Shown one piece after another: positions 2,839-29,458 of a stretch of 32,251 nucleotides of DNA. This DNA comes from a virus. The stretch's first letter is position 1; every line of letters starts with the position of its first letter. The stretch is taken from positions 1-32,251 of IMG/VR virus record IMGVR_UViG_3300030002_000075; one strand, written 5' to 3'. The position numbers and the translations under genes were made by a program. Below the pieces are notes generated by a model. That model was not told the DNA's origin. It saw nothing but the letters and a program-made list of their open reading frames with translations, and did no database searches.

Positions 2839-3717
2839 TCAATCGTCAGATATGTTAATTACTGGTATCGCCCGGCATCTACACCCTATAGCATGGCCCG
2901 GCTTACCGTCATCTTTTTTAGGTAGGTCTACTCTAGTACCGTCCGGGTAGTACAATTCGCTGCCCGGACCTTTAGTCGAGAATGTTTTCCCGTCCAAATC
3001 CATGTGGGTATGTCTCGGCGTTTTGCCTGCCGAACTATGTGCCCACTCAAACTCATCCACCCCATTTTGGTTCATGCGAGCGTTATTTAATTCGCAAAAT
3101 ATCTTTTTGGTCTGGTCCATTGCTATAAAATCAGCACGCTCTTTCGACGCACCAAGGGTATCCTTTAGATAAGCGCTTAGACCATATGCCCCCTGTTCGG
3201 TTCCTTGTGGAGACGTCAAAGAATTCCACACCGATTTCTCTATCTTGTCGTGGAATTCTTGGCCTACGCTTTTTATCAACGCCACGTTTTGCTGGACGGC
3301 CAGCTCCATGGAGCTTTCCCACTCTGGTTTGGGAATGTTTTTAGGCTGTTTTATGCCTAGCGACTTAAGAGATGACCCAACAGAAGAAAATGAATGTTTA
3401 TCCACCTGCATGGCAAATGACTCAGGGACTTTCCCGGTCAATTTAGCTATTTTTGACTGCCACCGCTTCGCTAGTTTCATAAAAGCGGCTTTAAATCTAT
3501 TTATAGGCAGCTTTGCATCGGCAGCATAATGCTCTTTGGTCCCCTCTAAGGACATTAAGGCCATTATCTCAGATTTGTAATCGGCGGCCATGCTGTCCAG
3601 CATTTCCTTAATTTGGTTGGCATACCATTCCTCTATGGCTACCGATGGGATCAGAGGCTTACCCCTGATCACTTTGTCCATTTTACGCCCGCGTTTTTTG
3701 GATGCTTTAAACACCAT
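2839..3717 (-). CDS. Phage Mu gpF-like head morphogenesis protein
   Basis: The 292-residue product carries the C-terminal minor-head signature of the Mu gpF/SPP1 gp7 family. A Trp-containing segment (EFEWAHSSAGKTPRHTHMDL, about 222-241) is followed by LDGKTF and then PGHAIGCRCRAIPV (about 273-286), with the invariant CRC. The N-terminal 200 residues are helical and Lys-rich. The family is needed for head assembly, and a few copies may sit near the portal. ATG 3717 overlaps the previous stop as TAATG, which suggests translational coupling; a GTG two codons earlier is less likely. The histidine/CRC arrangement may bind metal, but that is inference. Confidence 0.85.
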   Translation of the reverse strand: MVFKASKKRGRKMDKVIRGKPLIPSVAIEEWYANQIKEMLDSMAADYKSEIMALMSLEGTKEHYAADAKLPINRFKAAFMKLAKRWQSKIAKLTGKVPESFAMQVDKHSFSSVGSSLKSLGIKQPKNIPKPEWESSMELAVQQNVALIKSVGQEFHDKIEKSVWNSLTSPQGTEQGAYGLSAYLKDTLGASKERADFIAMDQTKKIFCELNNARMNQNGVDEFEWAHSSAGKTPRHTHMDLDGKTFSTKGPGSELYYPDGTRVDLPKKDDGKPGHAIGCRCRAIPVINISDD

Positions 3718-4049
3718 TACCACTGCCCAGCTGTTGCTTTCTGTTTATGGCCTTTTGCCTTGGTCTCTAAATTAGCAGCCTTTTTCAAGTCCCCGCTTCG
3801 TCTAGCTACAGATGCTTGTTTGGTTAAATGAGATGCCATAATCGCGTGCTCGCTTTTTGTCCTAGGTCCGTTTTTAATAATACTTTGGAGGCGCACTGCT
3901 TGATTGCTGGTATTTGCTGGCATTTTAGCAGCGGTTGCCCCCCCGCCACCTGATGAAAATTTGCCGCTGTTGTCCCGTTTTACTTCGTCCATAGCAACAC
4001 TCAGCGCCGTTATAGTATCAGCAATTTTTTTACCCATTTCTTTGTTCAT
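3717..4049 (-). CDS. Small hypothetical protein between portal and gpF genes
   Basis: I do not recognise this 110-residue protein beyond its position. It starts with a helical segment (1-27), then a short linker with VKRDNSGKFSSGGGG, the kind of flexible segment often seen in small phage head-module proteins. The C-terminal half (60-110) is strongly basic and Ala/Lys-rich. Its start overlaps the portal stop as ATGA and its stop overlaps the gpF start as TAATG, so portal, this gene and gpF are translationally coupled. An AAGGAA Shine-Dalgarno precedes ATG 4049. A chaperone or small scaffold role would fit the location but is not shown. Confidence 0.7.
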   Translation of the reverse strand: MNKEMGKKIADTITALSVAMDEVKRDNSGKFSSGGGGATAAKMPANTSNQAVRLQSIIKNGPRTKSEHAIMASHLTKQASVARRSGDLKKAANLETKAKGHKQKATAGQW

Positions 4050-6325
4050 TGTGCAGTTCCTTCATTGGTGGCCTCTGTTCTCCAGCCCATAGTATAAGGT
4101 TTCGTGTGGTCGCCGTTACCCATCCATTCTTTAAATCCCGGAACCGTGGCTACTTGTATATCGCCGAAACCATTCCAACCAGAGCCATATGCAGCATGGT
4201 ACGCGTTTTCGGCGTCGCCCACGCTATTGAACCCGATAAACGCTTTATGCTCATCAAAGGCACCCGTATCGGGGTCATTTTGGTTTACTATGTACACATT
4301 AGGGGCGTCAGGCATACGTCCCATAAACACATCCATGCCGTCACCATCAGCACCTAGTGTGTTCATTAAGTACCCATAATCATACTGCATTCGGGTAGAC
4401 CATTTTGTATCGCCCAGTTGGCCCCTTCGGTAGGTCCCAGCTGGGTTTTCAATAGCGACTTGGTAGCCGTTCCACGCCACTTTAGGCATGTCTTTTTCTG
4501 ACATGGAAGGCATGTCTCCCTTTAACGCCGACTCTATCTCAGGAATTACACTAGCTTGGACAGATGCATTGACACTAGGGAGGGTTATTCTTTTTGCCGG
4601 AGCTGACTTTTTGAGAAACGGCATCAACTGGTCTATAAGCCCGGCCAGTTCCGACATTTTCTCGTTTTCGTCGGTTTCTCCTTCATCTTCGGCACTGTCT
4701 CCCTCGCCCGGACCCTTTGTTTCTTCCTGTGGTTTTTCTGGCGCTCCCTCCAATGCTGCCTCGCCTTTTTCCGCATTGCCCGGATGGTCTAATTCCCCCG
4801 GCTCCAGCACTTCTTCCTCTGCATCATCTTCCTCATCCTTGATGTTGGAATACCCGGAGAATTTGTCGGCTCTCACACGTTTTCTTTCTTCATCAGGGCT
4901 GATAACCCCTGCGTTAATCAATCGCTCACCAGTGGCTGATTTCTTATCATTGATATCTGCTTGGGTCTCTGCTGTTTTGGCGTCCGTAGGGTTCCAAGCC
5001 ACTGTTACCTTGAAGTCCCACCCATTCGATTTAACCATAAGCTCATAGTGCCTACTCAGAAGAGGATCACATTCATCTGACTGGACGGTCTCTAGCTTCT
5101 CATGGTAACTCTTTTCTTCGAACTCGCCTGTAGCGTTAAATCCTTTAGGGGACGTGCCCAATAGTTTAGTAGCGGGTGTCTCTGCGATAGCTGCCACTAA
5201 TTGGTATTGACTCATTATGAGAGAGTCGAAGTCAGCCAGCGATGTGTCCGACTCTTCCATAGCTTCTTCCATCCCCAGCACTTTAATGGCGTGGTTATCC
5301 CGATAAGCTATCCACTGTTCTAGTCTCCCCTCAAATCCTTTTTGATCCGCTGCTACCTTTTTCAAGTCGACATGTAGTGCAGTTGTTCGTTTGGACATCG
5401 CCAGTAAAGGCGCTTCATTGGCGACGCGCTCTGCTGCATAGACACGTTCATATATGCGCTGGACCAAAGAGAGGCCGCCGTAGTATATGGTGGGTTTTAA
5501 GATATCGGCCACTTCAGGCCCTAGCGCCACATGCAAATGGGTCCAGTGGTACTTTTTCCCGCCGACTACCCACCAAGTGGGCTTGTAAAATCGCATCGAG
5601 GCCGGGTCGGTGGCCGCTTTGGTGTCTAGAAGGGGAGAACACCAATACGGGTCAATCTGGCGTATCCCTTTATATGACCCCTTACGGACCGCGTCGATAT
5701 TGAATGGCATTTCTAAAGCGTCGGCGTCTTCGTAGTCGACATCAAAAATTACTATACGAATGCCAAAGATATTTGTGAATTTTACCATATTGGAGAGATG
5801 GTTTTTAACCCCGTACTCCACATCAATTTGGTTTATTTCTTCCAACACCACAGGGTCGATATCAGTACCATCAGCGATATTTAAGTCCCACCCGTGGCGG
5901 ACCGCATCTAGGCCAGATTGTTCACATGCCTTATTTATCAGCCATTGTTGCGCCATAATAGCACATGTTTGCCATCCGATAAACCCTTGGCTCATATACC
6001 ATGATGTGATACCCTCGGGGACCCCATACATACCCATCGAGCCACCCTTAAGAGTGGACGCCCCGGTAGAATCATCACCCACAAATCCTTTGTGGACCAC
6101 AGCAGAGTCCATGGCGATGCCTTTCGCGGATTCTTTCTCCTCGGGGGCGATATCATCCAAAGCAGATCGGAGAGCGGGAGTTTGACCGTCTTCCAAAGAG
6201 TCGTTTCGTCTGATGCGCGCAAATGGGCTTAGGGGATCTAACCGTTCGGGGTAGGGGTCCTGCGTAGGCGGCTTTTGTTCGCCTCGCAGGATGATCTTGA
6301 TCGCAAGAGCAATTCTGTTAAACAT
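4046..6325 (-). CDS. Portal protein (DUF1073-type) fused to a pyrophosphatase-like domain
   Basis: This 759-residue protein has three parts. Residues about 90-480 match the DUF1073/phage_portal_3 type, with features such as SYKGIRQIDPYWCSPLL and ATKLLGTSPKGFNATGE followed by an acidic-aromatic helix. The expected role is the dodecameric portal through which DNA is packaged. Residues about 485-560 form a very acidic Glu/Asp/Pro linker. Residues about 607-759 resemble the phage inorganic-pyrophosphatase-like domain seen in polyvalent proteins: YDYGYLMNTLGADGDGMDVF, then FDEHKAFIGF and a GW-G-F block. It lies between the large terminase and head assembly genes, as a portal should. Typical portals of this group are about 450 residues, so the extra C-terminal domain is a real addition. 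Its enzymatic activity is inferred. Confidence 0.85.
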   Translation of the reverse strand: MFNRIALAIKIILRGEQKPPTQDPYPERLDPLSPFARIRRNDSLEDGQTPALRSALDDIAPEEKESAKGIAMDSAVVHKGFVGDDSTGASTLKGGSMGMYGVPEGITSWYMSQGFIGWQTCAIMAQQWLINKACEQSGLDAVRHGWDLNIADGTDIDPVVLEEINQIDVEYGVKNHLSNMVKFTNIFGIRIVIFDVDYEDADALEMPFNIDAVRKGSYKGIRQIDPYWCSPLLDTKAATDPASMRFYKPTWWVVGGKKYHWTHLHVALGPEVADILKPTIYYGGLSLVQRIYERVYAAERVANEAPLLAMSKRTTALHVDLKKVAADQKGFEGRLEQWIAYRDNHAIKVLGMEEAMEESDTSLADFDSLIMSQYQLVAAIAETPATKLLGTSPKGFNATGEFEEKSYHEKLETVQSDECDPLLSRHYELMVKSNGWDFKVTVAWNPTDAKTAETQADINDKKSATGERLINAGVISPDEERKRVRADKFSGYSNIKDEEDDAEEEVLEPGELDHPGNAEKGEAALEGAPEKPQEETKGPGEGDSAEDEGETDENEKMSELAGLIDQLMPFLKKSAPAKRITLPSVNASVQASVIPEIESALKGDMPSMSEKDMPKVAWNGYQVAIENPAGTYRRGQLGDTKWSTRMQYDYGYLMNTLGADGDGMDVFMGRMPDAPNVYIVNQNDPDTGAFDEHKAFIGFNSVGDAENAYHAAYGSGWNGFGDIQVATVPGFKEWMGNGDHTKPYTMGWRTEATNEGTAQ

Positions 6326-6388: not shown

Positions 6389-7818
6389 TAGAAGCCAAAC
6401 CCCGCCCCAAAACTCGGTGACGCGTCTTTTATCTCGTGGAATTTCTGGTCTTCCTCTGACCACTGCCAAGTAGCTAGGCTATCCGTGAAAGTAAAGAATG
6501 AATCTGGCTTTTGCGTAGATAGATGCTCCACTGCGTATCTTATCGCATCCCACAGATGGTCATTTCCCTTTTCAAATGTAGGTAATATTTTCCCCGTTCT
6601 AGCATCCACTTTCCAACGGTACTTTTTGGACTCGACTATTAGATTAGCGCATCTAGGGTGGATGTATATCCGATCGAAGTTGTTTATGAACATCAGTCCA
6701 TTCTCAACCGACCCTGCCGCCTTCTTAGCTGGCTCACAGTCTATCCCACATTCGTTCATCTTGTTTATAGCCAACGGCAAAGATGAATCAGCTCGAATTG
6801 TCGGCTGGGGCACCCCATGCATCTTAACAACTAATCCCGGCAATTCAGAAGAAAATAGGGGAGGTAGCTCGTCTAGACTATGATTATTTGTGTATAGCTC
6901 ATAGTCCACCCATAAACAAGCCTTCCCCCGCTCATTCAGTGCTATGAACAGACGTACGCCTGCTGTGGGATCAGCGCCGCCATTGCTCCAGTCAGCCCCG
7001 AACAGAAATTCCTGTTTACCCCAAGGAGGAGCCTCAAATTCTCTTTCTTCCGAACGTTTAATTACTGTATTACCTACGATGTGCTTAGTGTGGCCGAGCC
7101 ATATCCAGCAGTAGTCAGCAATAGCTTGGTTTTTGGCATCCTCTGTGGGGGCGTCAATTATTCTTTGAAGTGAGTTTAACCGGTCTGACTCCAGTGACTC
7201 AGTGAAGTACGGGTTGTCGTAATAGTTCACAACAACGGCTAATCTGTCCTCATACCCCGGCTGTCCTGCTTTAGCCACCAGTTCTTGGTACACAAAAGCA
7301 TCTTCATCCTCGGGGTTCATTGTGAACAGCAATCTGTTCCCGGTAGTACGTATCGATGGTAGCAGCTTTTCCATTGTCTCTTTAGAAATACCTTGAGCCT
7401 CTTCCCCCCAAAATACCTTTATTCCCGCCACAGATTTAAGGGAATCGATGTTGGACCTCAGACCCTTAAATATTGCTACCGATCCTGTCTTCTTTGATTT
7501 AATGTATTTCTGGGCGGTGTCGAACATATGGTCCCGACCCTGACGGGCTATAGCCAGCTCCAGCTCTGCTTTGGATGAGTCCGCTATGGATACTTGAAGC
7601 TCACGCCCGCACAGTACTTTCATCGGGGATGAGTGCATGTACCGAGTTACCGCATCAGCTACATTGTACGTTTTCCCTGACCCTCGACCACCTACAAAGG
7701 TTATGATGCGGTAATTTCGTATCTCCCCGTTCACTGGGTCAAGCACTACAAAAGGGTTCGGCCTTGCCTTGGCTTCTTCAGGATCAAATGGCTTTAGTTC
7801 CTTGTCGATATCAAACAC
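6385..7818 (-). CDS. Terminase large subunit
   Basis: This is the ATP-driven packaging motor and headful or site-specific nuclease; 477 residues is normal. The ATPase shows Walker A GGRGSGKT (43-50) and a Walker B-like IKVFWGEEA (133-141). The C-terminal RNase H-like nuclease has acidic residues in GADWSNGG (D276), IRADSS (D344) and NDHLWDAIRY (D420/D424). It belongs to the PBSX/Terminase_3-like group by these motifs. The start is GTG at 7818, supported by GGGAGG seven bases upstream, and it overlaps the small-subunit stop by one base (TAGTG). It shares the promoter at 8318-8346 with the small subunit. Confidence 0.93.
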   Translation of the reverse strand: MFDIDKELKPFDPEEAKARPNPFVVLDPVNGEIRNYRIITFVGGRGSGKTYNVADAVTRYMHSSPMKVLCGRELQVSIADSSKAELELAIARQGRDHMFDTAQKYIKSKKTGSVAIFKGLRSNIDSLKSVAGIKVFWGEEAQGISKETMEKLLPSIRTTGNRLLFTMNPEDEDAFVYQELVAKAGQPGYEDRLAVVVNYYDNPYFTESLESDRLNSLQRIIDAPTEDAKNQAIADYCWIWLGHTKHIVGNTVIKRSEEREFEAPPWGKQEFLFGADWSNGGADPTAGVRLFIALNERGKACLWVDYELYTNNHSLDELPPLFSSELPGLVVKMHGVPQPTIRADSSLPLAINKMNECGIDCEPAKKAAGSVENGLMFINNFDRIYIHPRCANLIVESKKYRWKVDARTGKILPTFEKGNDHLWDAIRYAVEHLSTQKPDSFFTFTDSLATWQWSEEDQKFHEIKDASPSFGAGFGFY

Positions 7819-8288
7819 TATCTAACCTCCCAAGGAGCTGGTGTTTTAGCCTCATCATCTGCGTTAGGATCATTGACATACTTTTCAGCCATTTCAAGCA
7901 ACCTAGCCGCAGATGTCAGATCTACCACCCTACGGTGATACACATTACCTTCTTTATCATATACGGGTCTTTCAATCTCACCTAACGCCATATCGAGCGC
8001 TCTGGATAGCCTTGCCTGAAGCCCCACACGAGTAAATGTGGTAACTTCTGAGTATTGCTGACCCACGTCCGCTATTGCCGCTTGTGTTAATGGATCAGAC
8101 AAGTACATGCTTACTTCTTGGTCGCTGATCCCCACATCAAGCATTTTGTGAGTAGAATACCCTGACCGTATGTACCAGCACACAAATAACTTTTTGTCGT
8201 TAGGTAGATTTATCCACTCTTCATCTTTGTGTTTCTCCACCAACGCTTTAAAGTCCATGGCGTCGGTCATTGTCGGAATTGCTGTCAT
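7818..8288 (-). CDS. Terminase small subunit
   Basis: The product of 156 residues precedes the large terminase gene and overlaps it. Its N-terminal half contains a predicted helix-turn-helix-like stretch (SGYSTHKMLDVGISDQEVSM), and a helical C-terminus (ARLLEMAEKYVND) would support ring assembly. This subunit recognises the packaging site and loads the large subunit. The ATG at 8288 has AGAGGA placed correctly upstream. An ATG at 8303 and a TTG at 8318 are in frame, but the -10 box occupies 8318-8323, so the TTG cannot be the start. The packaging site is often in or beside this gene, which makes the adjacent non-coding element of interest. Confidence 0.8.
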   Translation of the reverse strand: MTAIPTMTDAMDFKALVEKHKDEEWINLPNDKKLFVCWYIRSGYSTHKMLDVGISDQEVSMYLSDPLTQAAIADVGQQYSEVTTFTRVGLQARLSRALDMALGEIERPVYDKEGNVYHRRVVDLTSAARLLEMAEKYVNDPNADDEAKTPAPWEVR

Positions 8289-8317
8289 ATATTCCTCTGA
8301 CATGGGTGATTTTTTCA

Positions 8318-8346
8318 ATTATACCACAGAAAACTTGTGAAGTCAA
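8318..8346 (-). promoter_or_regulatory. Sigma-70 promoter for the terminase operon
   Basis: On the minus strand TTGACT (8341-8346) and TATAAT (8318-8323) are spaced 17 bases apart, with TGTGG before the -10. The leader to ATG 8288 is about 23 bases. Confidence 0.87.
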
Positions 8347-8698
8347 TGTGGGTTAGGGCATCCCTCCGAGGGTTAGATATAATGCCAACAAGTCCCAAGA
8401 AGCAAATTTAAAACTTAGAACCAAGAACACCGTCCGGCGCGGCCTCTTGGTTCCCTCTATTTCTTTTTATTTATTTTTAGGTTAGGGGTTAGGGTAGGAT
8501 AGGGGTCCGGAGATTGGAAGAAGACCATTATTCTCCGAGACAAAGCCGCTGGCTCTGGATCACCATGAACTATCTTGGTTCGAATATCCTCGGACCCCTA
8601 ACCTATATCTCTAAAAAGTCCAGACATGGCTGAGGCCGCGTCGGTAGCGGCCTCAGGTGGGTTAGATGTGATTATGGCCCAGCGGATAGGTATGTCTA
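8347..8698. other. Non-coding element, copy A (candidate origin/packaging site or structured RNA)
   Basis: No convincing gene lies here. The stretch shares an ordered set of blocks with copy B. A 30-base block at 8418-8447 has 26 of 30 matches. A T-rich tract runs about 8453-8478. An 11-base arm (8478-8488) is complementary to 8595-8605. A 20-base block at 8539-8558 has 19 of 20 matches. GGTTAG or its complement occurs at 8351, 8371, 8480, 8487, 8598 and 8660. A 9-base arm (8418-8426) can pair with either 8445-8453 or 8573-8581. It may act as DNA (origin, packaging site) or as RNA; no good promoter for it is visible. Confidence 0.75.
8630..8656. repeat. Perfect 10-bp GC-rich hairpin in copy A
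   Basis: CTGAGGCCGC (8630-8639) and GCGGCCTCAG (8647-8656) flank a 7-base loop. On the minus strand it lies 42 bases after the stop of the 8699 gene, but the nearest T run (T5) is 12 bases further on, so it is a poor intrinsic terminator. Copy B has a GC hairpin in the same relative place. Confidence 0.8.
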
Positions 8699-9394
8699 TC
8701 AGTGAACAGTTGGGTCAATAGACATCGGTTTTGTGGGCTGTGTGGCGGCCATATCATCCCTATCAAACATGATGGCCTGTCCTTCATTTTCCCCCACTGC
8801 TTTGCAAATGTCAATATACGCTGCCATATGTGCGCATATCATAACCCCTAACGATTGGCTGTTGTTCCACACTTCATCGCCATGAGTTTCAAAATATCGA
8901 CCTAATTTACGAGAATGCATGCTAACAGCGATAACCGACGACACACCTGCCGACGTCTCTTTATATTCCCCGGTAAAAGGGTCGTGGTCAGAATGCCCGT
9001 GCTTGATGGCCATCAACATCTCAAAACAAGATGGTCTCACCTTTCCTGACAAAGCTATCTCCGCTGATTTTGCTCTTAGGTCATCATATCTGCGGGCATA
9101 TTCTTCTTTAGAGGTGGCTTCAGATATGCCCAGATATTTGTTCATAGCAACCGCAAGCATCCCGGCAACTATGATACACCCATTTCTAACATCAGAAATA
9201 GCATAATCAGAAAAAGCTTGAGGCCCTTTCCGCGCTACTTCTGAAAGGATGATTCTCGCTTCAAGAGCCGAGGCAACTATGATGCCAACTCGGTCATCAA
9301 GGCGAATATCTTTATCAAGGTTTAAGCTGAGGGCTAGACCGGCCACCACATGATAGATCAGGTTTTCTTTAAAAGGTTCTATATTGAGCTTCAT
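8699..9394 (-). CDS. Hypothetical protein, 231 residues
   Basis: I do not recognise the family. The protein is mostly helical, with an Ala/Val/Leu-rich N-terminal half (residues 14-85) that is amphipathic rather than a clear membrane segment. The middle holds several His/Asp residues (KHGHSDHDPFTGEY, about 131-144), and a C-terminal helical stretch is rich in Met and Ala. The start ATG at 9394 has AGGAGAA upstream and overlaps the stop of the hexapeptide-repeat gene as ATGA. It is the last gene of the operon that begins at the 10097 promoter. The histidine cluster could bind metal, but this is only suggested by composition. Confidence 0.75.
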   Translation of the reverse strand: MKLNIEPFKENLIYHVVAGLALSLNLDKDIRLDDRVGIIVASALEARIILSEVARKGPQAFSDYAISDVRNGCIIVAGMLAVAMNKYLGISEATSKEEYARRYDDLRAKSAEIALSGKVRPSCFEMLMAIKHGHSDHDPFTGEYKETSAGVSSVIAVSMHSRKLGRYFETHGDEVWNNSQSLGVMICAHMAAYIDICKAVGENEGQAIMFDRDDMAATQPTKPMSIDPTVH

Positions 9395-9891
9395 TTGGTT
9401 CTCCTGTGTGATTCTTTTTCTCGACGAATTACATCTTGGTGCGGGTCAACCGCTAAGTCGGGTCGTCCTGACAAAAACATGGACCCGACCCCCACAATAA
9501 CTGGTCGCGTGAATGTGGGCCTATCACCGAACCAAGATTGGTCCCCGATGCGGATGTGGCTTCCCATAAACGAGCAACGATCCCCGAACGTACACTCACT
9601 GCCGAATGATGAGCCATTATTGAAGATAGCCCCTTTTAGGGTGTAGGTGTGGTGGCCGAAATAGCACCCTGCCCCGAACGATACGTCATTCTGGATTCTC
9701 GCCCGGTTCCCGATCACACAATGAGTGCCCACTAAAGAGTGGTGGCCGAACGACACACCATCCCCAAACCGGCATCTATTGCCGATGTGGCAGTGATGGC
9801 CTATCTCAGAATAGTTAGGGAAAATGGTGTCTTCACCCACCATCGTAAACGGCGGAACGATATACCCGCCACGAAGATTTTTGTCGAACAT
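9391..9891 (-). CDS. Hexapeptide-repeat left-handed beta-helix protein (short)
   Basis: Most of this 166-residue protein is a run of six-residue repeats of the form [FIV]-G-x-x-[CSAV]-x, for example IGNRCR-FGDGVS-FGHHSL, from about residue 24 to 130. This is the signature of a left-handed parallel beta-helix, as in LpxA-type acyltransferases. Phe at the repeat apex is unusually frequent. No acyltransferase catalytic context is evident, so a structural or binding role is equally possible. GAGGG precedes ATG 9891, one base after the upstream stop. A larger relative is encoded at 10484-11155. Confidence 0.85.
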   Translation of the reverse strand: MFDKNLRGGYIVPPFTMVGEDTIFPNYSEIGHHCHIGNRCRFGDGVSFGHHSLVGTHCVIGNRARIQNDVSFGAGCYFGHHTYTLKGAIFNNGSSFGSECTFGDRCSFMGSHIRIGDQSWFGDRPTFTRPVIVGVGSMFLSGRPDLAVDPHQDVIRREKESHRRTK

Positions 9892-10068: not shown

Positions 10069-10096
10069 TATACTCTCCGGTGTGTTTGATGTAATC

Positions 10097-10125
10097 ATTA
10101 TACCACATTTTTGAAATGCTGTCAA
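10097..10125 (-). promoter_or_regulatory. Sigma-70 promoter
   Basis: On the minus strand TTGACA (10120-10125) and TATAAT (10097-10102) are 17 bases apart, with TGTGG before the -10. It drives the genes ending at 9892, 9391 and 8699. Confidence 0.9.
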
Positions 10126-10259: not shown

Positions 10260-10487
10260 TTATTTGATTTGTGACGCCATGATCTCTTGGCGTTCGCTTT
10301 CTTTAAGGCCGAGCCACACTTTAGCTAACTGACGAGAACGCTCTTTGCTGTGGCCTTTCTCCATAAACAGTTTAATCAATGTCTTTTTACTGCGACCCTT
10401 ATAAAAACTGTTGGGACCCTTACGGGGCTGATGGCTATCGGCAGGCCACACCTCGGGCTTGTCTTGAACTATTTCATGCGGGATCAT
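10260..10487 (-). CDS. Small basic hypothetical protein, 75 residues
   Basis: This 75-residue, Lys/Arg-rich protein starts at ATG 10487, overlapping the TGA of the large hexapeptide-repeat gene (ATGA). The central part (RSKKTLIKLFMEKGHSKER) looks like a helix-turn-helix-sized helical pair followed by a third helix (LAKVWLGLKESERQEIM). A nucleic-acid-binding role is plausible from charge and size. No family is recognised. It ends the operon from the 12089 promoter and is followed by a possible terminator. Confidence 0.7.
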   Translation of the reverse strand: MIPHEIVQDKPEVWPADSHQPRKGPNSFYKGRSKKTLIKLFMEKGHSKERSRQLAKVWLGLKESERQEIMASQIK

Positions 10488-11155
10488 TCATCACCTCTGC
10501 TGCCAATGATGCATTTGCTCTGGACTACTGGATGTCTTCCCTTCCAGCCGTCCTCAATAGTGACACCTGTCTCCAAATGGACGGGGGCCTCAAACGTAGC
10601 TAAAACATCAACAACCGAGTCTTGGCCTATTCTGGCACTGCCGTGGAAACTGGAGTTAGCCCCGACATAACATCTGCTCCCCAAAACTCCCCCAAACCAG
10701 AAAGTAGCGCATTCTCCGATGACAGTGCGGCTCCCCACCACTATTGCATTGAATTTGGAATGGCCGCCGATATTGCAGCGTTGACCGATGGTAGTATGCC
10801 CGCGAAACAGACATGAACAACCGATAAACACATCATCAGCCACGACCACACCATTGAAACCGCAAAAGCCCCCAATAACGCTTCTGAACCCGATAGAACA
10901 ACCAATACCAAACGACGCGTAACTACCAATGCGGCATCTTGAACCAAATGAGCAATATGCTCCGAACGAACAATTAGTGCCGAAAACGACACCATCCATG
11001 AACGCGCAGTTGTCGCCGAATCTGGTGTCATCAGGAATGACGCTGCCTGCGGGTATTACTGTACAATCCGGGATTTCATACCCATAAACATTTTCGTTTT
11101 GTGCGTTAGAGCTTACTACGCGCTTAGGGAATCTTGTGACATCAAAATGACTCAT
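10484..11155 (-). CDS. Hexapeptide-repeat left-handed beta-helix protein (long)
   Basis: The 223-residue product contains roughly 25 hexapeptide turns from about residue 28 to 190, such as FGTNCS-FGAYCS-FGSRCR and IGQRCN-IGGHSK. It is longer than its neighbour at 9391-9891, and many repeats carry Cys or Ser at the fifth position. A left-handed beta-helix is expected. The C-terminal segment (about 190-223) departs from the repeat and may cap the helix. The N-terminus has a DVTRFPKRVVSSNAQ stretch of unknown role. ATG 11155 has TGGAGAG five bases upstream; an in-frame GTG at 11176 lies before this Shine-Dalgarno. Function is unknown. Confidence 0.85.
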   Translation of the reverse strand: MSHFDVTRFPKRVVSSNAQNENVYGYEIPDCTVIPAGSVIPDDTRFGDNCAFMDGVVFGTNCSFGAYCSFGSRCRIGSYASFGIGCSIGFRSVIGGFCGFNGVVVADDVFIGCSCLFRGHTTIGQRCNIGGHSKFNAIVVGSRTVIGECATFWFGGVLGSRCYVGANSSFHGSARIGQDSVVDVLATFEAPVHLETGVTIEDGWKGRHPVVQSKCIIGSRGDE

Positions 11156-11191
11156 TTTATCTCTCCAGACAACCACGTCCTTGTGGTCGCA

Positions 11192-14865: not shown

Positions 14866-14893
14866 TTTAACCTCTACATTGAGCCAAAACACC

Positions 14894-14922
14894 ATTGTAC
14901 CACGCTTTGGCCCCCATGTCAA
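14894..14922 (-). promoter_or_regulatory. Sigma-70 promoter
   Basis: On the minus strand TTGACA (14917-14922) and TACAAT (14894-14899) are 17 bases apart, with CGTGG before the -10. It drives the genes from 14865 to 13115. Confidence 0.87.
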
Positions 14923-14926
14923 TTAT

Positions 14927-15166
14927 TTAAATAAACTCGCCGATGTTTGACCGGGTGCCATCTTCAGCAACGTTGAATTTATGCTTACAATGACGGCAGC
15001 GGAAAAGAACGGGCCATTGTACCCACCCCAGCAACTGCACTTGCTCGGTCCCACATTTGGGGCATAGCGGTTGAAGTTTCGATGCCGCGTCACGGCGCAT
15101 CACCAGCTCCATCAGAGCCATCCCCTCAGGGGTCATCACTATATTACCCATTACCAACTTTTTCAT
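14927..15166 (-). CDS. Small zinc-ribbon protein, 79 residues
   Basis: Two knuckles, CPKC (35-38) and CRHC (57-60), are separated by an 18-residue strand-rich hairpin, which makes a zinc ribbon. Preceding it is a helix rich in Met and Ala (MALMELVMRRDAA). GGAG precedes ATG 15166, which overlaps the stop of the DUF3850 gene as ATGA. It is the last gene of the 16462 transcript. It is unrelated in sequence to the zinc ribbon at 11790-12065 outside the knuckles. Nucleic-acid or protein binding is likely; the target is unknown. Confidence 0.75.
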   Translation of the reverse strand: MKKLVMGNIVMTPEGMALMELVMRRDAASKLQPLCPKCGTEQVQLLGWVQWPVLFRCRHCKHKFNVAEDGTRSNIGEFI

Positions 15167-16461: not shown

Positions 16462-16490
16462 ATTGTACCACAGCCGGAGCTTGATGTCAA
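16462..16490 (-). promoter_or_regulatory. Sigma-70 promoter
   Basis: On the minus strand TTGACA (16485-16490) and TACAAT (16462-16467) are 17 bases apart, with TGTGG before the -10. It drives the genes from 16419 to 14927. Confidence 0.88.
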
Positions 16491-16494
16491 TTAT

Positions 16495-18739: not shown

Positions 18740-18767
18740 GATTTTTCTCCGGTTATTGAACCAAATA

Positions 18768-18796
18768 ATTATAGCACAGGCCGAAGCCTATGTCAA
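18768..18796 (-). promoter_or_regulatory. Sigma-70 promoter with a dyad in the spacer
   Basis: On the minus strand TTGACA (18791-18796) and TATAAT (18768-18773) are 17 bases apart, with TGTGC before the -10. The spacer holds a near-perfect inverted repeat around a TTCG centre (one mismatch), like the promoter at 20321-20349. It drives the genes from 18739 down to 16495. Confidence 0.88.
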
Positions 18797-18799
18797 GTA

Positions 18800-19024
18800 T
18801 TAATCCAGCTCCCGGTCAGGGTCCCATTTAGCGCGGCGCACTGTCAGCAGGTCGAGTTTCACACCCAACAATTTGGCGCAGCGACCGTGCTTCTCTTTGC
18901 TGAATCGGGTCCCTGAACAGTTAATCCAATACTTAGGCGTTTCTCGGAGCCACGCTTTAATCCGGATGGTGCTGTTATCAGTTCGAACTACCAAAATTCC
19001 CATGTGAGTGGGCTGTTTAGCCAT
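18800..19024 (-). CDS. Small protein, paralogue of the 19035 product
   Basis: The 74-residue product starts MAKQPTHMGILVV and has GGAGA upstream of ATG 19024. Together with the gene at 19035-19241 it forms a tandem pair: both begin MAKQPTH-x-G, continue with a strand (I/L-V-V/T), include a charged central segment (W-x-E-T-P/A), a central Cys and a C-terminal region ending in basic residues. It is rich in strands and basic residues. A small nucleic-acid-binding fold is plausible; no family recognised. Confidence 0.75.
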   Translation of the reverse strand: MAKQPTHMGILVVRTDNSTIRIKAWLRETPKYWINCSGTRFSKEKHGRCAKLLGVKLDLLTVRRAKWDPDRELD

Positions 19025-20286: not shown

Positions 20287-20320
20287 TTGTGTTTCCTCGT
20301 GCGGTAAACTTGATAAAAAT

Positions 20321-20349
20321 ATTATACCACGGGCCGAAGCCCGTGTCAA
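20321..20349 (-). promoter_or_regulatory. Sigma-70 promoter with a perfect 7-bp dyad in the spacer
   Basis: On the minus strand TTGACA (20344-20349) and TATAAT (20321-20326) are 17 bases apart, with CGTGG before the -10. The spacer and part of the -35 contain CACGGGC, a TTCG loop and GCCCGTG (20328-20345). It drives the genes from 20286 to 18800. Confidence 0.9.
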
Positions 20350-20359
20350 GCATTGCACT

Positions 20360-20785: not shown

Positions 20786-20835
20786 TTTGTAATTCCTTGT
20801 GTTGTGGTGAGGGGCGACTGCCTCTCGATAAAACT

Positions 20836-20864
20836 ATTATACCACGACCCGACATCCATGTCAA
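20836..20864 (-). promoter_or_regulatory. Sigma-70 promoter
   Basis: On the minus strand TTGACA (20859-20864) and TATAAT (20836-20841) are 17 bases apart, with CGTGG before the -10. It drives the gene at 20360-20785. Confidence 0.9.
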
Positions 20865-20895
20865 GTATTACACACATAGAAATTGTAATAAAATG

Positions 20896-21993: not shown

Positions 21994-22028
21994 TTTGTAA
22001 TTCCTTGTGTGATAAACCCAATAAAACT

Positions 22029-22057
22029 ATTGTATCACAACTCGACGTCCCTGTCAA
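22029..22057 (-). promoter_or_regulatory. Sigma-70 promoter
   Basis: On the minus strand TTGACA (22052-22057) and TACAAT (22029-22034) are 17 bases apart, with TGTGA before the -10. It drives the genes at 21811 and 20896. Confidence 0.88.
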
Positions 22058-22068
22058 GTGTTGCACAA

Positions 22069-22566: not shown

Positions 22567-22956
22567 TTACTTCTCCTGATTAGGGCTGGTTAGCCCGGAT
22601 AGACGCTCGGCGGTTAAGTTGGTAGTCAATTTAATAGATAATGCCCTTGAAAACAAAGGTCGACGCCATATATCCATCTTTTCTTTATGTGACACATAGT
22701 CGCCTACCTCGGCCACGCTGTTGCCCACCAACAAATGAGGATTTACAGATGATAAATAGATAAGGCGGTCAGCCAGATTGACGTAGCTGTGGCCATGAGG
22801 AACCCTATCAAATACATCATGCAGCAGTGAAGTGTAGTTAGTAACGACTTCAGCCGGGTCATACTTCAGCGAAGTAAGGTCAATAACAGCTTCAGCCACT
22901 ATTTTGGTCATCACTTCAACATTGAGTCGGTAAACAGCTCCGGTATCTTCTTTCAT
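22567..22956 (-). CDS. Hypothetical protein, tandem paralogue (129 residues)
   Basis: GGAGAG precedes ATG 22956. Residues about 21-75 match the 22977 product closely: LxSLKYDPAxxVxNYTSLLHD and then VFDxVPxGHxYVNLAxxLI. The leader is shared too. This copy has an additional 50 residues at the C-terminus (about 80-129), absent from the other. It ends one base before the endolysin start. Function unknown, though the co-transcription with the lysozyme is notable. Confidence 0.75.
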   Translation of the reverse strand: MKEDTGAVYRLNVEVMTKIVAEAVIDLTSLKYDPAEVVTNYTSLLHDVFDRVPHGHSYVNLADRLIYLSSVNPHLLVGNSVAEVGDYVSHKEKMDIWRRPLFSRALSIKLTTNLTAERLSGLTSPNQEK

Positions 22957-22980
22957 TTCTCTCTCCAGTTCAATGACTAC
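22949..22980. repeat. 32-base direct repeat, copy 1 (leader and start of the 22567 gene)
   Basis: The 32 bases at 22949-22980 are identical to 23248-23279. Each spans the Shine-Dalgarno and first codons of one of the two paralogous genes. This supports a recent tandem duplication. Confidence 0.9.
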
Positions 22981-23255
22981 AGCACCAACAAAACCACTTG
23001 GTGAGGTTCGCACATGGTACACCCATCGGCTCTGACGTAGGGGGCTGCGGAGGCCAAACAGATAAGCTTCTCGGCCAAATTAACATAATCATGGCCGTTG
23101 GGGACTTCGTCGAACACGTCGTGTAACAATGAGGTATAGTTAGCAACAATTTTTGCTGGGTCGTATTTCAGTGAATTCAAGTCGCCGATAGCTTTATTAA
23201 CTATCTCACCAACCAGCCCAGAATAAAATCGGTATGCTTGTTCTGCCTCTTTCAT
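22977..23255 (-). CDS. Hypothetical protein, tandem paralogue (92 residues, divergent end)
   Basis: First gene after the 23288 promoter; ATG 23255 has GGAGAG upstream. Residues about 23-68 are closely similar to the 22567-22956 product (LKYDPAKIVANYTSLLHDVF). After LICLASAAPY the similarity ends, and the last 20 residues (GCTMCEPHQVVLLVL) come from reading through the duplicated region between the copies. This suggests that the duplication joint truncated this copy. Confidence 0.72.
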   Translation of the reverse strand: MKEAEQAYRFYSGLVGEIVNKAIGDLNSLKYDPAKIVANYTSLLHDVFDEVPNGHDYVNLAEKLICLASAAPYVRADGCTMCEPHQVVLLVL

Positions 23256-23279
23256 TTCTCTCTCCAGTTCAATGACTAC
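23248..23279. repeat. 32-base direct repeat, copy 2 (leader and start of the 22977 gene)
   Basis: Identical to 22949-22980; see that entry. The repeats lie 299 bases apart. Confidence 0.9.
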
Positions 23280-23287
23280 GAATCCCC

Positions 23288-23316
23288 ATTATAGCACATC
23301 CGACCATCGATGTCAA
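23288..23316 (-). promoter_or_regulatory. Sigma-70 promoter for the endolysin transcript
   Basis: On the minus strand TTGACA (23311-23316) and TATAAT (23288-23293) are 17 bases apart, with TGTGC before the -10. It drives the tandem paralogues and the endolysin. It faces away from the plus-strand promoter at 23774. Confidence 0.9.
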
Positions 23317-23773
23317 TTACTCAATCACCGACACCAATTATTAACGATCGAGGAATGAACCAATAGCACGCTAATCATCTAGGATAGGGATCGGCTGACC
23401 TAACACATAGATCTAACCACTACCGTCCGAACCAAAAATACCGTCCGACGCGGCTTCTCCTCTTTTTTATTTTTTTAGGTTAGGGGGGTTAGGAGAAATA
23501 GGGGGTAGACGACATCGAAAGAGAAGCAGCCACAGCGGGACAAAGCCGGTGGCTCTGGCTCGTTCATCTTTCTTTCTGGACGACGCGGATAGATATACCC
23601 CTAACCTATCCTGATATATGCCGACAGCCCCACAGCCCGCGTCCTTCGGGGCTTGGTCTTCTGCGAATTATCTAACCCGTGGCTGCCCTCGAATACCCAG
23701 CCTAACCCGTTTTTGGTTCTCCGGTAAGTGTTCCCTTAACCCGTCATCTAACCTTCGGCGCTCGATGGAAGTA
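23317..23773. other. Non-coding element, copy B, in the divergent promoter region
   Basis: Between the divergent promoters there is no convincing gene. The blocks shared with copy A are a 30-base block at 23429-23458, a T-rich tract at about 23461-23476, and an 11-base arm (23476-23486) complementary to 23598-23608. A 20-base block at 23539-23558 and a GC hairpin around 23625-23655 complete the set. CTAACC or its complement occurs at 23413, 23478, 23487, 23601, 23672, 23702 and 23748. A 10-base arm (23429-23438) pairs with 23710-23719, closing the whole element. Position, iterons and AT-rich tract fit a replication origin; conserved pairing also fits a structured RNA. Confidence 0.75.
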
Positions 23774-23802
23774 TTGACAATGGTCTAACTGCGTGTTAAA
23801 AT
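23774..23802 (+). promoter_or_regulatory. Sigma-70 promoter, first of the plus-strand module
   Basis: TTGACA (23774-23779) and TAAAAT (23797-23802) are 17 bases apart, with CGTGT before the -10. Transcription begins near 23809. Confidence 0.87.
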
Positions 23803-24342: not shown

Positions 24343-24723
24343 ATGTTTAGAACTAAAGACTTTACCTGCCCGAAATCCCCGCAATCAAGCAAAAATCCGA
24401 ATGTTGAAGTAGCGCTGGCCCACGCACGGCTGTTCAAAGGGTTGCCATCAAGCCTATTTGTGAAGCTCCATGTCCTTAATAAATCGTTGTGCTATATCAG
24501 AGGCGAATGTGACGACCGCAGGGTACGAATCCGATATATCATCGTAATGCTGGACTTCCCTAATGGCAATACGTACCCGTGCATCTCATACAGAGACGCT
24601 ATCAACGAATGTATCGCGGCTGATGACGCTGGTAATCTTTACGCCAGCGAGACACAGGTAATGCTGGAACGGGCGGCGTCGGCATGGATTGCAGAGCACG
24701 GAGCTAACGATGCACATCCTTAA
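24343..24723 (+). CDS. Hypothetical protein, 126 residues
   Basis: GGAG lies six bases before ATG 24343. The N-terminus is Pro/Ser/Lys-rich (PKSPQSSKNPNVEVALAHAR). Residues about 20-70 contain strands (SSLFVKLHVLNKSLCYI, then RVRIRYIIVMLDF). The C-terminus is an acidic, Ala-rich helix (QVMLERAASAWIAEHG). It overlaps the primase-helicase gene by 14 bases, so translation is probably coupled and the product may assist replication. No family recognised. Confidence 0.7.
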   Translation: MFRTKDFTCPKSPQSSKNPNVEVALAHARLFKGLPSSLFVKLHVLNKSLCYIRGECDDRRVRIRYIIVMLDFPNGNTYPCISYRDAINECIAADDAGNLYASETQVMLERAASAWIAEHGANDAHP

Positions 24724-27304
24724 TGAAGAGCAATATGATGAGCTATCAGATATAGCAGACCGATCGCAACAAGTATACCAAGCCGCAAGTAAGCTGGCAT
24801 CACTGGGGTTGAGACTGTTCCCATCAAAACCGTTCGATAAGGATAAACTGGAAACCGCTTTAAATGCCTACGCCGCCGACAAGGCACGTGCTAAGGCAGA
24901 AGGTCGTAAGCAGGAGATGAAGCAGAGAGATTACCAGATGTGGGGCGGTAAAGCGCCTGCGTTTAGTAATCAGTATGAAAAGGCGTCGTATGCGCAGGGT
25001 GAGATAGACGGGTGGTGGAATCCGGCCAGCGGGAAATACCGAGGCTGTAACATCTGTTTGGCCACTGGCGAAGGGTCTGGCGTAATAGTTTTGGACTTGG
25101 ACGTCAAGCTAGATAAAGACGGAAACGTAGCCGAGGACGGCTTCATTTGGTTCAATAAGGTGTCGGAGGGACATGAACCAATAGAGACGTTCAAAGTACG
25201 CACTGGCGGTGAGTCGGGTCAAGGCATGCACATCTATTTCAGATGGCGTGAGGACATCCCAGCCAAAAGCAACAAGAACAAATTCGCACCCGGCGTAGAC
25301 TTCCGCGCTGATAATGGTCACGTGATGGCACCGTTCTCGAAGTGCTACTCAATGTACGACGCTATTGAACTGAACGAAGTAGCTGATATGCCCGATTGGC
25401 TATTCGACGCTATTTTCAATGTGGGGGCCTCCGCACAACGTCCCGGAGCACAAAACGCACAGATGGGGGCTGACGTAGCCGACGCACCCGGTCCTGCGTT
25501 TTGTATTACGCCATTGGACCAGATATCCGACATGCTGGACTGCATTGACCCGTCTGAGCATGAGGACTGGTGGCAAGATATTTGTTTCGCCATAAAGTCG
25601 GAGCATGACACCGACGACGGGTTTGACGTCCTAGATCGATGGAGCGCCCGAGACCCGGAAGAGTACGACCATGCGATGAATTTAGACTTCTGGAATCGAG
25701 GTAGTTCCAAAAAGGCGGGCGGTGCGAATATATCAACGCTTTACTACTTTGCCGAGCAGTGCGGATGGATGAATCCGAAGCGAGGCGCGACCAAGCTTGA
25801 TATTTCAAAAGCAGTCAGAATGATGAACCGGTCATTCGCGGTAATTGACCCCGACCGCTGGATGGTTGACATGGTTAAACGAGGTAAAACTCCGGATAGG
25901 CGAACCCTACCCCCGGTATTTATCCCTGCAATGACTGTGTTCAAGACGAGATACGCACTAACCGATGAAGGCAAGATGAAGCACGGGTATGCCAAGGTAT
26001 CGGAAGTGTCCATCATGCAAATCAAGTTAATGGCAGCTGGGTATAAGGTCGAGATGCAACTGCAGAACGGGAAAATAGTCACTAAAGACTTGTTCGATGT
26101 GTGGCTGCAGAACCCGGCTCGTGTCTCATATGCATCGGCGGGCTTCTATATCGAGAACAGTCGATGTCCAAACGGCGTATTGAACCTGTTCCCCGGCTAC
26201 AAGGTGCGACCGATAGAGGGTGCGCCGACAATGTTTTTGCGCCACCTAAATGAAATAGTGTGCTCAGGAGACTCCGACCGCTCTTTTTGGGTCATGAACC
26301 GTCTGGCCTACATGGTGCAATTCGGTGACACGGTAGTACCTACTGCTTTAGCTATCACAGGGGACCAAGGGTCCGGTAAATCGATTTTGGCGGAATATGT
26401 TGGAAGTGCGCTAGGTGAGCTTAACTACAAATACCTGCACAATGATGACGCCTTGGCCTCACGATTCTCTGAAGAGCTGGTGGGGAAATTTATGATATGC
26501 GCGGATGAAGCGATTTTTACTGGCGATCCAAAACTACGCAACAAGCTGAAATCATTGATATCGGCCCAGACGATGCGTGATGAGGGGAAGGGGAAGGCAG
26601 CCAGAGACGCACAGAATGTAATGTTTTTGGTGGCGTTGTCAAATGAAAACGAACCGGTGGCAGTTGAACGAGGCGATAGGCGGTGGACAGTTATGAAAAC
26701 AGATAACAAATTCAGCAAGGAAAATAGGGACGCCAACAGAGAAGTAGACAAAGAAGCACGGCTATATTTCAAAGAATTGGCCACCGAGATGAAGGGCGAC
26801 GGCCCAGCTAAATTGCTGCATATGCTACTGAACTGGGAAGTGGACTTCGAAGCGGCCCGGACATCGCTGACCACCAAAGAGAAAGCTGAAATGGCCGACA
26901 CCCGTATGATGCGATGTGACTCGCTGGTGGCATATCTCTACTACAACATGGTGAAAGGATTTGATGTAGAAGAGCAAGACGACGGCAATGGGACTGGGGA
27001 GGGATGGGGAGGGCGCAGCAGGATGGGCGACTTCTACGAAGCGTACGTCGCATGGGTCCACAGCAACCGTCAACGCAATAGTGAATGGCGGGCCGAGCCT
27101 GTACAGACGTTTCGCGACCGTCTACTCAATGATTTCTCGTGTCAGTTGGTTAAGCCCAAGAATAAAAGCACCATCGTGTGGCCTACATGCGCTACGATGA
27201 GAGACTGCTTAAGAGCGTGGATCCCCGAGCTTATCGAGGAACTTGATGCAGAAGATAGGGACAAGTTTGCGGAGTATGACGCAGATAAAGAACAGGATTT
27301 TTAG
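24710..27304 (+). CDS. Primase-polymerase/PriCT-2/SF3-like helicase replication protein
   Basis: 864 residues with three domains. Residues about 30-240 form a primase-polymerase (Prim-Pol) domain: VLDLDVK (127-133) with the metal-binding Asp pair, a GESGQGMHIYF block (H174), and VDFRADNGHVMAPFS. Residues about 268-353 match PriCT-2 (DMLDCIDPSEHEDWWQDICF, ending with LYYFAEQCGW). Residues about 540-690 form a helicase: Walker A GDQGSGKS (551-558) and Walker B-like FMICADEA (594-601), then NENEPVAVERGDRRW. It would synthesise primers and unwind DNA at the fork. ATG 24710 has GGAG six bases upstream. Single proteins of this layout occur in many phages and plasmids. Confidence 0.9.
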   Translation: MHILNEEQYDELSDIADRSQQVYQAASKLASLGLRLFPSKPFDKDKLETALNAYAADKARAKAEGRKQEMKQRDYQMWGGKAPAFSNQYEKASYAQGEIDGWWNPASGKYRGCNICLATGEGSGVIVLDLDVKLDKDGNVAEDGFIWFNKVSEGHEPIETFKVRTGGESGQGMHIYFRWREDIPAKSNKNKFAPGVDFRADNGHVMAPFSKCYSMYDAIELNEVADMPDWLFDAIFNVGASAQRPGAQNAQMGADVADAPGPAFCITPLDQISDMLDCIDPSEHEDWWQDICFAIKSEHDTDDGFDVLDRWSARDPEEYDHAMNLDFWNRGSSKKAGGANISTLYYFAEQCGWMNPKRGATKLDISKAVRMMNRSFAVIDPDRWMVDMVKRGKTPDRRTLPPVFIPAMTVFKTRYALTDEGKMKHGYAKVSEVSIMQIKLMAAGYKVEMQLQNGKIVTKDLFDVWLQNPARVSYASAGFYIENSRCPNGVLNLFPGYKVRPIEGAPTMFLRHLNEIVCSGDSDRSFWVMNRLAYMVQFGDTVVPTALAITGDQGSGKSILAEYVGSALGELNYKYLHNDDALASRFSEELVGKFMICADEAIFTGDPKLRNKLKSLISAQTMRDEGKGKAARDAQNVMFLVALSNENEPVAVERGDRRWTVMKTDNKFSKENRDANREVDKEARLYFKELATEMKGDGPAKLLHMLLNWEVDFEAARTSLTTKEKAEMADTRMMRCDSLVAYLYYNMVKGFDVEEQDDGNGTGEGWGGRSRMGDFYEAYVAWVHSNRQRNSEWRAEPVQTFRDRLLNDFSCQLVKPKNKSTIVWPTCATMRDCLRAWIPELIEELDAEDRDKFAEYDADKEQDF

Positions 27305-28153: not shown

Positions 28154-29458
28154 ATGACAAGTTTAATCGCAGAAATCACCGTGGAACAAAAATTAGATGC
28201 TATGTTAGTGTCGGGCTACCCGTTAACGGCTGACCAAAAGGGTGGTATGCTGAAATTAGATGCGTGGCTCAAAACAGCTAAAGTGAAGTGTAAACAATAC
28301 ACCAACAAGCCACCAGTATTTAGGCTGTACGGGTTGGCTGGTACGGGTAAAACTACATGTAGTGTAGCAATAAGAAAACTAGGACTAAATCCCCTTTATG
28401 TGTCGTTCACCAACCGAGCAGTAAATGTGCTGGCGTCTAAGGGTTGCGTACCATGTGCCACAATACACAGCGTGTTGTATGACTGTGATGACAATGGTGC
28501 ATTGCTTAGTCCTGAGGGTCTGGCGATGCAAAAAGAGTATCTGGATGCCGTGGAAGCGGGCATCCCGCCATCAGAGCGGCCACCTCTACCGGTAGCCCGT
28601 AGTTCGGTGGGGTTCATCCGTCGAGAGTGGCGTGAGATACGGGAGAAGGTAGCGGAGTACGACTGCATTGTAGTTGATGAAGCATCGATGGTGGGCCAGA
28701 CCATGGGCGAAGATTTGGAATTCATCGGCTTGCCTATTATCGGAATCGGCGACCCCGGACAATTGCCCCCGGTAGGTGACTGGCCATTTTTCGACCCAAA
28801 ACGTCCGGATGTGCTGCTTAAGAAAGTGCTGCGTACTGACGGTGATATTTTGGAAATCGCGGCCCATGTACGCCTAGGCGGGAAGTTTAATGATAAGCCC
28901 AAAGGAATTGACTACGAGGTCAGGCGCAGAGCCGACCCGTCTTGGTTCAATTGCCAACAAGTGCTGTGCGGGATCCACGACAAAAGGCGCGAACTAAATA
29001 AGCATATGCGCAAGTTGTTGGGCTATTGGGGCTTCGTGCCGAATATCGGTGAAAAGATATGCTGCGTGTCCAACAGTAAGGAGTATGGTGTAACCAATGG
29101 TAGTTTATGGACAGTTGCTGCAGTAGAGGTAGAAGGTGATTACGCCATGTTAGACTTACTGGAATACTCACCATCAAAAGACCCAAAAGAGCTGGAGCTG
29201 GTGCCGGGTGTCCCAGTGCATATCACCTGTTTTGTTCAAGACATCAAAAACAGGGATGACTTGCCTATTAACGTCCGATGGGATTCAGTATTGGCCACGT
29301 GGGGCTACGCAATCACTGTACATAAAGCGCAGGGTTCTGAATGGGCGTCTGTGTTGCTGTTTGATGATAGTCACATATTCCGGGACGCGGCCCGACAATG
29401 GGCATATACCGGGGCGACGCGGGCCGCGAAGAAACTGTATGTCGTATCCCGCACTTAG
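28154..29458 (+). CDS. SF1B DNA helicase, Dda/RecD2-like
   Basis: 434 residues, similar in length to T4 Dda. Motifs in order: Walker A GLAGTGKT (60-67), motif Ia region with SFTNRAV, Walker B VVDEASM (173-179), motif III GDPGQLPPVG (199-208), and the 2A/UvrD_C_2 region with ATWGYAITVHKAQGSEW (about 381-397). Motif VI is YTGATRAAKKLYVV (about 418-431). These helicases load at ssDNA, move 5' to 3' and help replication or recombination. GAGGGG precedes ATG 28154. No dedicated promoter lies directly upstream, so it may rely on readthrough past the terminator or a weaker promoter. Confidence 0.9.
   Translation: MTSLIAEITVEQKLDAMLVSGYPLTADQKGGMLKLDAWLKTAKVKCKQYTNKPPVFRLYGLAGTGKTTCSVAIRKLGLNPLYVSFTNRAVNVLASKGCVPCATIHSVLYDCDDNGALLSPEGLAMQKEYLDAVEAGIPPSERPPLPVARSSVGFIRREWREIREKVAEYDCIVVDEASMVGQTMGEDLEFIGLPIIGIGDPGQLPPVGDWPFFDPKRPDVLLKKVLRTDGDILEIAAHVRLGGKFNDKPKGIDYEVRRRADPSWFNCQQVLCGIHDKRRELNKHMRKLLGYWGFVPNIGEKICCVSNSKEYGVTNGSLWTVAAVEVEGDYAMLDLLEYSPSKDPKELELVPGVPVHITCFVQDIKNRDDLPINVRWDSVLATWGYAITVHKAQGSEWASVLLFDDSHIFRDAARQWAYTGATRAAKKLYVVSRT

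Follow-up and report, generated by a model that had tools for sequence, protein, structure and literature searches.

What is the function of a non-coding element that an uncultured tailed phage carries twice? The window analyzed here is the complete virus record IMGVR_UViG_3300030002_000075 (32,251 bases), in which the head and packaging genes (terminase, portal, head morphogenesis and protease) lie on the minus strand, followed by a long series of small minus-strand genes and then, from 23,842, by plus-strand replication genes. Among the plus-strand genes are a primase-polymerase/helicase gene (24689-27304; Prim-Pol, PriCT_2, DUF5906) and a Dda-like helicase gene (28154-29458). The first copy of the element, A, sits between the minus-strand gene 8699-9394 and the promoter of a putative small terminase gene (7818-8318, minus strand), which lies to its left and adjoins the large terminase gene. 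The second, B, occupies the divergent junction of the minus- and plus-strand gene arrays, ~1 kb from the primase-polymerase gene.

Several further features of the window were recorded. A near-consensus sigma-70 promoter (TTGACA-17-TATAAT) repeats as a module before many minus-strand genes (8318, 10086-10106, 14888-14927, 16462-16493, 18756-18805, 20309-20358, 20824-20873, 22017-22066 and 23288-23316). An exact 32-base direct repeat (22949-22980 and 23248-23279) lies over the beginnings of two neighboring genes with similar protein products, pointing to a recent tandem duplication beside copy B. The portal protein (4046-6325) has a C-terminal inorganic-pyrophosphatase-like domain (PF18823), two of the small genes (9391-9891 and 10484-11176) encode hexapeptide-repeat (left-handed beta-helix) proteins, and 29564-30337 encodes a Lys/Ala-rich low-complexity protein with imperfect repeats at a step of ~33 bases.

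A sequence-only reading of this DNA had described the two copies, which we place at 8418-8656 (A) and 23429-23720 (B), as a duplicated non-coding element whose blocks recur in the same order 15 kb apart, and our analysis bears this out: the alignment of A with B over their whole length scored 498, compared with 203 ± 20 (maximum 272) for dinucleotide shuffles. The element begins with a GC-rich block 1 (GAACCAAGAACACCGTCCGGCGCGGCCTCT; core CCAAGAACACCGTnnGrCGCGGCCTC) that matches at 26 of 30 positions between 8418-8447 and 23429-23458, as had been claimed; in B it includes a direct repeat CCGTCCG, 18 bp apart (block and repeat together 23423-23458). A T-tract follows (8460-8478 in A, 23460-23476 in B) and directly abuts AGGTTAGGGG within the predicted 11-base left arm, TAGGTTAGGGG (8478-8488 and 23476-23486), which is a candidate site for the initiator or primase-polymerase. 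G-rich direct repeats (GGTTAGGGGTTAGGGTAGGATAGGGG in A) extend over 8480-8505 and 23478-23505, and the G4Hunter maximum is 1.88-2.28 across the four elements of the window and of a relative described below. All of these features are given on the plus strand, as is the 20-base dyad block (CAnAGCCnnnGGCTnTG in A), which is identical at 19 of 20 positions between 8539-8558 and 23539-23558 and matches no other place in the window with three or fewer mismatches (0.01 expected). The right arm is TAGGTTAGGGG in inverted orientation, that is, the exact complement CCCCTAACCTA read on the plus strand (8595-8605 and 23598-23608). Exact TAGGTTAGGGG thus occurs four times in the window, as one inverted pair in each copy, and the spacings reported earlier are exact when counted start to start (61 and 63 bases from left arm to 20-base block, then 56 and 59 to the complement).

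One proposed part was not common to both copies. Only A forms the GC hairpin well, as a perfect 10-bp inverted repeat (CTGAGGCCGC/GCGGCCTCAG; 8630-8656; z -5.0) with arms identical to those in the relative and a changed loop; its counterpart in B (~23630-23656) is a different and weak hairpin (z -1.1; 0.1 in the relative). Other candidates were discarded. An intrinsic terminator was ruled out because no T-run follows the hairpin of A on either strand; a 9-bp hairpin in block 1 of A (GAACCAAGA/TCTTGGTTC) is missing in B and in the relative; and a coding element was rejected, the longest stop-free stretches being short and unlike between the copies.

The sequence-only reading had made its claim depend on a second copy and a conserved block order in related phages, and both were found. 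The same virus is present in IMGVR_UViG_3300030019_000047 (51.6 kb) and in short contigs, and a diverged relative, IMGVR_UViG_3300020045_009460 (63,736 bases), has a 121-base end overlap, so that its contig is circular at ~63.6 kb. Most matched proteins are 50-95% identical between relative and window, and the relative keeps A and B at syntenic places with the same order of blocks. Copy-specific letters are common to both genomes (GAGACAAAGCC...GATC in A, GGGACAAAG...GCTC in B), which shows that the duplication predates the split of the genomes and that each copy has been maintained. In the relative we also observed a counterpart of the small gene 3717-4049, which in the window lies between the portal and head-morphogenesis genes, beside copy B (59.0-59.26 kb of G002), so this gene has moved between the late and early regions.

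Between the two genomes, block 1, T-tract plus arm, and dyad block of A are 88-92% identical (block 1 at 22 of 25 positions, the dyad block at 26 of 29) and the left arm is conserved; the right-arm block is 79% identical, and the linkers only 36-39%. The earlier argument that drift between the blocks betrays selection therefore stands for A; B, the better conserved copy, is conserved over most of 23,340-23,680 in the alignment with the relative, both CCGTCCG repeats being kept and one half-site of the dyad block changing from C to A. Selection on the blocks of the element is supported by these comparisons. In all four elements the T-tract and the left arm are immediately adjacent. When viral contigs were scanned for the 20-base block or for T-tract plus arm, the element was recovered only in the window's virus and the relative, all other matches being chance hits, mostly in coding DNA and lacking a second arm; BLAST searches of A and B against phage records gave no relative, and genome contigs gave no further family member, at the sensitivities used. 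All comparative statements therefore concern two genomes and four sequences, an element family from one clade.

The arms and hairpins are able to pair, and the sequence-only reading had implied an RNA with pairing arms. Two paralogous copies of a structured non-coding RNA would also explain why A folds better than its shuffles (z -3.7 on the plus strand and -5.4 on the minus strand), as do three of the four elements on the plus strand (A and both copies of the relative). Against this, the window's B is no more stably folded than its shuffles (z 0.0). A direct count found no two-sided change in the 11-base arms, the RNAalifold covariation term is ~0, and structure-wide measures were not clearly above shuffles, four sequences making this a weak test; arm pairs break in single sequences, for example one pair in the relative's A. 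The search of the elements against Rfam returned no family match, the tRNA/tmRNA search returned nothing, and no promoter directed into A or B is conserved in the alignment with the relative. With copies of the motif described next extending outside the folded region, we regard the RNA explanation as improbable, and the implied RNA with pairing arms as unsupported.

This motif is GGTTAG, whose extra copies around both elements the earlier reader had missed. It occurs 22 times in the window, with 13 of these copies at the element (six at A, seven at B), and 25 times in the relative, where the two elements account for 12 (five and seven). AGGTTAGGGG, allowing up to one mismatch, has 12 matches in the 51.6-kb and 63.7-kb contigs, each of them inside one of the two elements or right beside it. 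Both orientations of the motif are represented, within as well as beyond the supposed pairing arms, and the outer copies shift position between genomes. To the left of A, GGGTTAG sites (8350-8377, plus strand) stand beside the -35 box of the promoter of the small terminase gene; to the right of B, CTAACC sites (23670-23753, at 23672, 23702 and 23748; minus strand) adjoin a plus-strand promoter, and CTAACC is found there in the relative as well. Such a pattern, judged from the letters alone, is what protein-binding sites usually show and would not be expected from an RNA helix, so that predicted protein-binding DNA sites fit this cluster better than an RNA does.

Which protein would bind, and for what purpose, is where the DNA-level explanations part. 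If a phage regulator acted on the GGTTAG sites, A and B could be transcription-control regions through which it co-regulates the packaging and head operon, by way of A, and both of the divergent early operons, by way of B. Strong sigma-70-type promoters do lie downstream of each copy (8346-8318 and 23316-23288 on the minus strand, 23774-23802 on the plus strand) and are kept in the relative, and GGTTAG/CTAACC sites adjoin their -35 regions at 8350 and 23748. However, many other minus-strand genes have near-identical promoters without the element, its core lies 70-110 bp upstream of the minus-strand promoters, and a T-tract and dyad held at fixed spacing over ~190 bp exceed the needs of a simple operator. 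Transcriptional control is therefore a rather unlikely alternative.

The position of A also invites a packaging explanation, in which the small terminase protein binds A as a pac region and has a second site in B. The putative small terminase gene begins 100-340 bp downstream of A, but its assignment is itself weak (25% identity, E 1.6e-5, to the gene preceding the large terminase gene of Burkholderia phage Bm1). The termini of Bm1 lie ~220 bp upstream of the corresponding gene (PMC12003559), yet the Bm1 terminus has nothing like A, and B, the better conserved copy, adjoins replication genes and not terminase genes. The contigs continue through both A and B. On balance we consider packaging a very improbable role for the pair, a shade less credible than the RNA explanation.

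The reading that we prefer, and hold with about even confidence, is that A and B are a pair of replication-origin-type DNA elements with a build like that of SPP1 oriL and oriR, each with primase-polymerase recognition sites in inverted orientation, one of which a T-tract immediately precedes. Paired phage origins of the SPP1 type come as two similar copies per genome and contain clustered short direct repeats, as A and B do with GGTTAG, and the location of B agrees with this. The cumulative GC-skew minimum of the relative falls at 57,709, inside its B (arms 57,581-57,710), and that of the window at 23,756, just beyond B. Gene direction also switches at B, which confounds GC skew, and no skew turn is seen at A; the position of the skew minimum thus agrees with an origin and does not prove one.

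In the origin model, a phage initiator, most simply the primase-polymerase with its SF3-like helicase (24689-27304), would recognize the GGTTAG sites and assemble on the two inverted TAGGTTAGGGG copies to either side of the dyad block; this enzyme is the predicted binder because of the position of its gene and the type of enzyme. It would then open the DNA and start strands outward. The T-tract lies exactly 5' of AGGTTAGGGG, and the inverted second site is ~115 bp away, so that the two starts would diverge: one on the T-tract immediately 5' of the left site, heading left, and the other at the inverted right site, heading right. We infer the binding protein, the opening, the priming and the direction of this scheme, in which B, the copy next to the primase-polymerase operon, would probably be the main origin. 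A, located in the late and packaging region, would be the second copy, acting as a late origin or as a fork-stalling or concatemer-switch site of the kind proposed for SPP1 oriR. Its role is the least certain of all: besides a second origin, A could be a block to the fork, a site of regulation or a portion of the packaging site.

The chemistry of the DNA may add a further aspect. The relative encodes PurZ and DpoZ, both above NCBI's curated cut-offs, and an HD-type nucleotidase that is a weak match (954-2036, 2989-4854 and 59-685 of L051, G002:40001-60000; all minus strand). On the strength of PurZ and DpoZ, its genome probably carries 2-aminoadenine in place of adenine. The window is without genes for PurZ, DpoZ or the nucleotidase and the 51.6-kb contig has no PurZ match, so that 2-aminoadenine in the window's own virus is something we infer; this phage, too, probably swaps adenine for another base. 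Since pairs of 2-aminoadenine (Z) with T melt between A:T and G:C (PMC8342488), the T-tract is a less obvious unwinding element: with 2-aminoadenine, if present, it would melt less easily than ordinary A/T DNA. Opening of an origin is all the more interesting in such DNA with its triple-bonded pairs, and our literature search found no account of an origin in phages that carry the PurZ/DpoZ gene set for 2-aminoadenine. A more specific version of the origin model, which we put forward as speculative and think unlikely to hold in full, is a two-origin replicator of a 2-aminoadenine phage in which the primase-polymerase/helicase itself binds the origins. No separate initiator would be needed: in each origin, two template-recognition sites of opposite orientation would each begin a leading strand that heads outward, and at one of the two the strand would begin on a T-tract, to be copied into 2-aminoadenine.

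Two separated regions with short repeats recognized by a primase/helicase protein are familiar from phage P4, with its ori1 and crr. The likeness to A and B is one of description, P4 having another repeat, another genome and another mode of packaging. By layout, Bacillus phage SPP1 resembles the window's virus in having two similar elements that both contain direct repeats and a T/A-rich stretch, the first tied to the initiator gene and the second in the late region (PMC6316719). SPP1 oriR and oriL lie 12-13 kb apart and have direct repeats and an AT-rich region in common, and oriR interrupts the late region (PMC6316719). The two systems differ in position, oriL being located within gene 38 and B between genes, and in machinery, which in SPP1 comprises an origin-binding protein, a loader and a DnaB-type helicase and in the window's phage a primase-polymerase with an SF3-like helicase.

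As for the enzyme, the only other phage found with this primase-polymerase is Bm1 (PP183292; 50% identity), distant portal relatives (42-46%) being without it. Bm1 has a single exact TAGGTTAGGGG (L012:13588-13598) at the start of a minus-strand gene, at a divergent junction upstream of its primase-polymerase gene, in a stretch where ~0.1 matches would be expected even at one mismatch; unlike the window, it has no paired element, motif cluster or copy A.

The closest mechanistic parallel is the NrS-1 primase-polymerase, which starts DNA de novo at the first base 5' of the template motif TTTGGTTA (PMC8718748), and for which recognition sites on opposite strands were proposed by its authors as an origin (PMC7102993). 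The helicase part of the 24689-27304 product belongs to the same family (DUF5906) and matches the NrS-1 primase structures PDB 6k9c and 6k9e with E 1e-11, while none of the Pfam models for the NrS-1 helix-bundle, head and tail matches this product. Exact TTTGGTTA is not in A or B, with two copies elsewhere in the window, and we found it once in the NrS-1 record compared with twice according to the paper. Together with the unmatched helix-bundle, these counts make NrS-1 a working analogy only. The core GGTTA is nevertheless common to both sites, and the NrS-1 start lies 5' of the motif, exactly where A and B have their T-tract. With its defined length of 190 bp and its named candidate initiator, the element would open this question to direct tests in vitro, and would also reveal if a primase-polymerase is able to specify an origin for itself, an idea so far only proposed for NrS-1.
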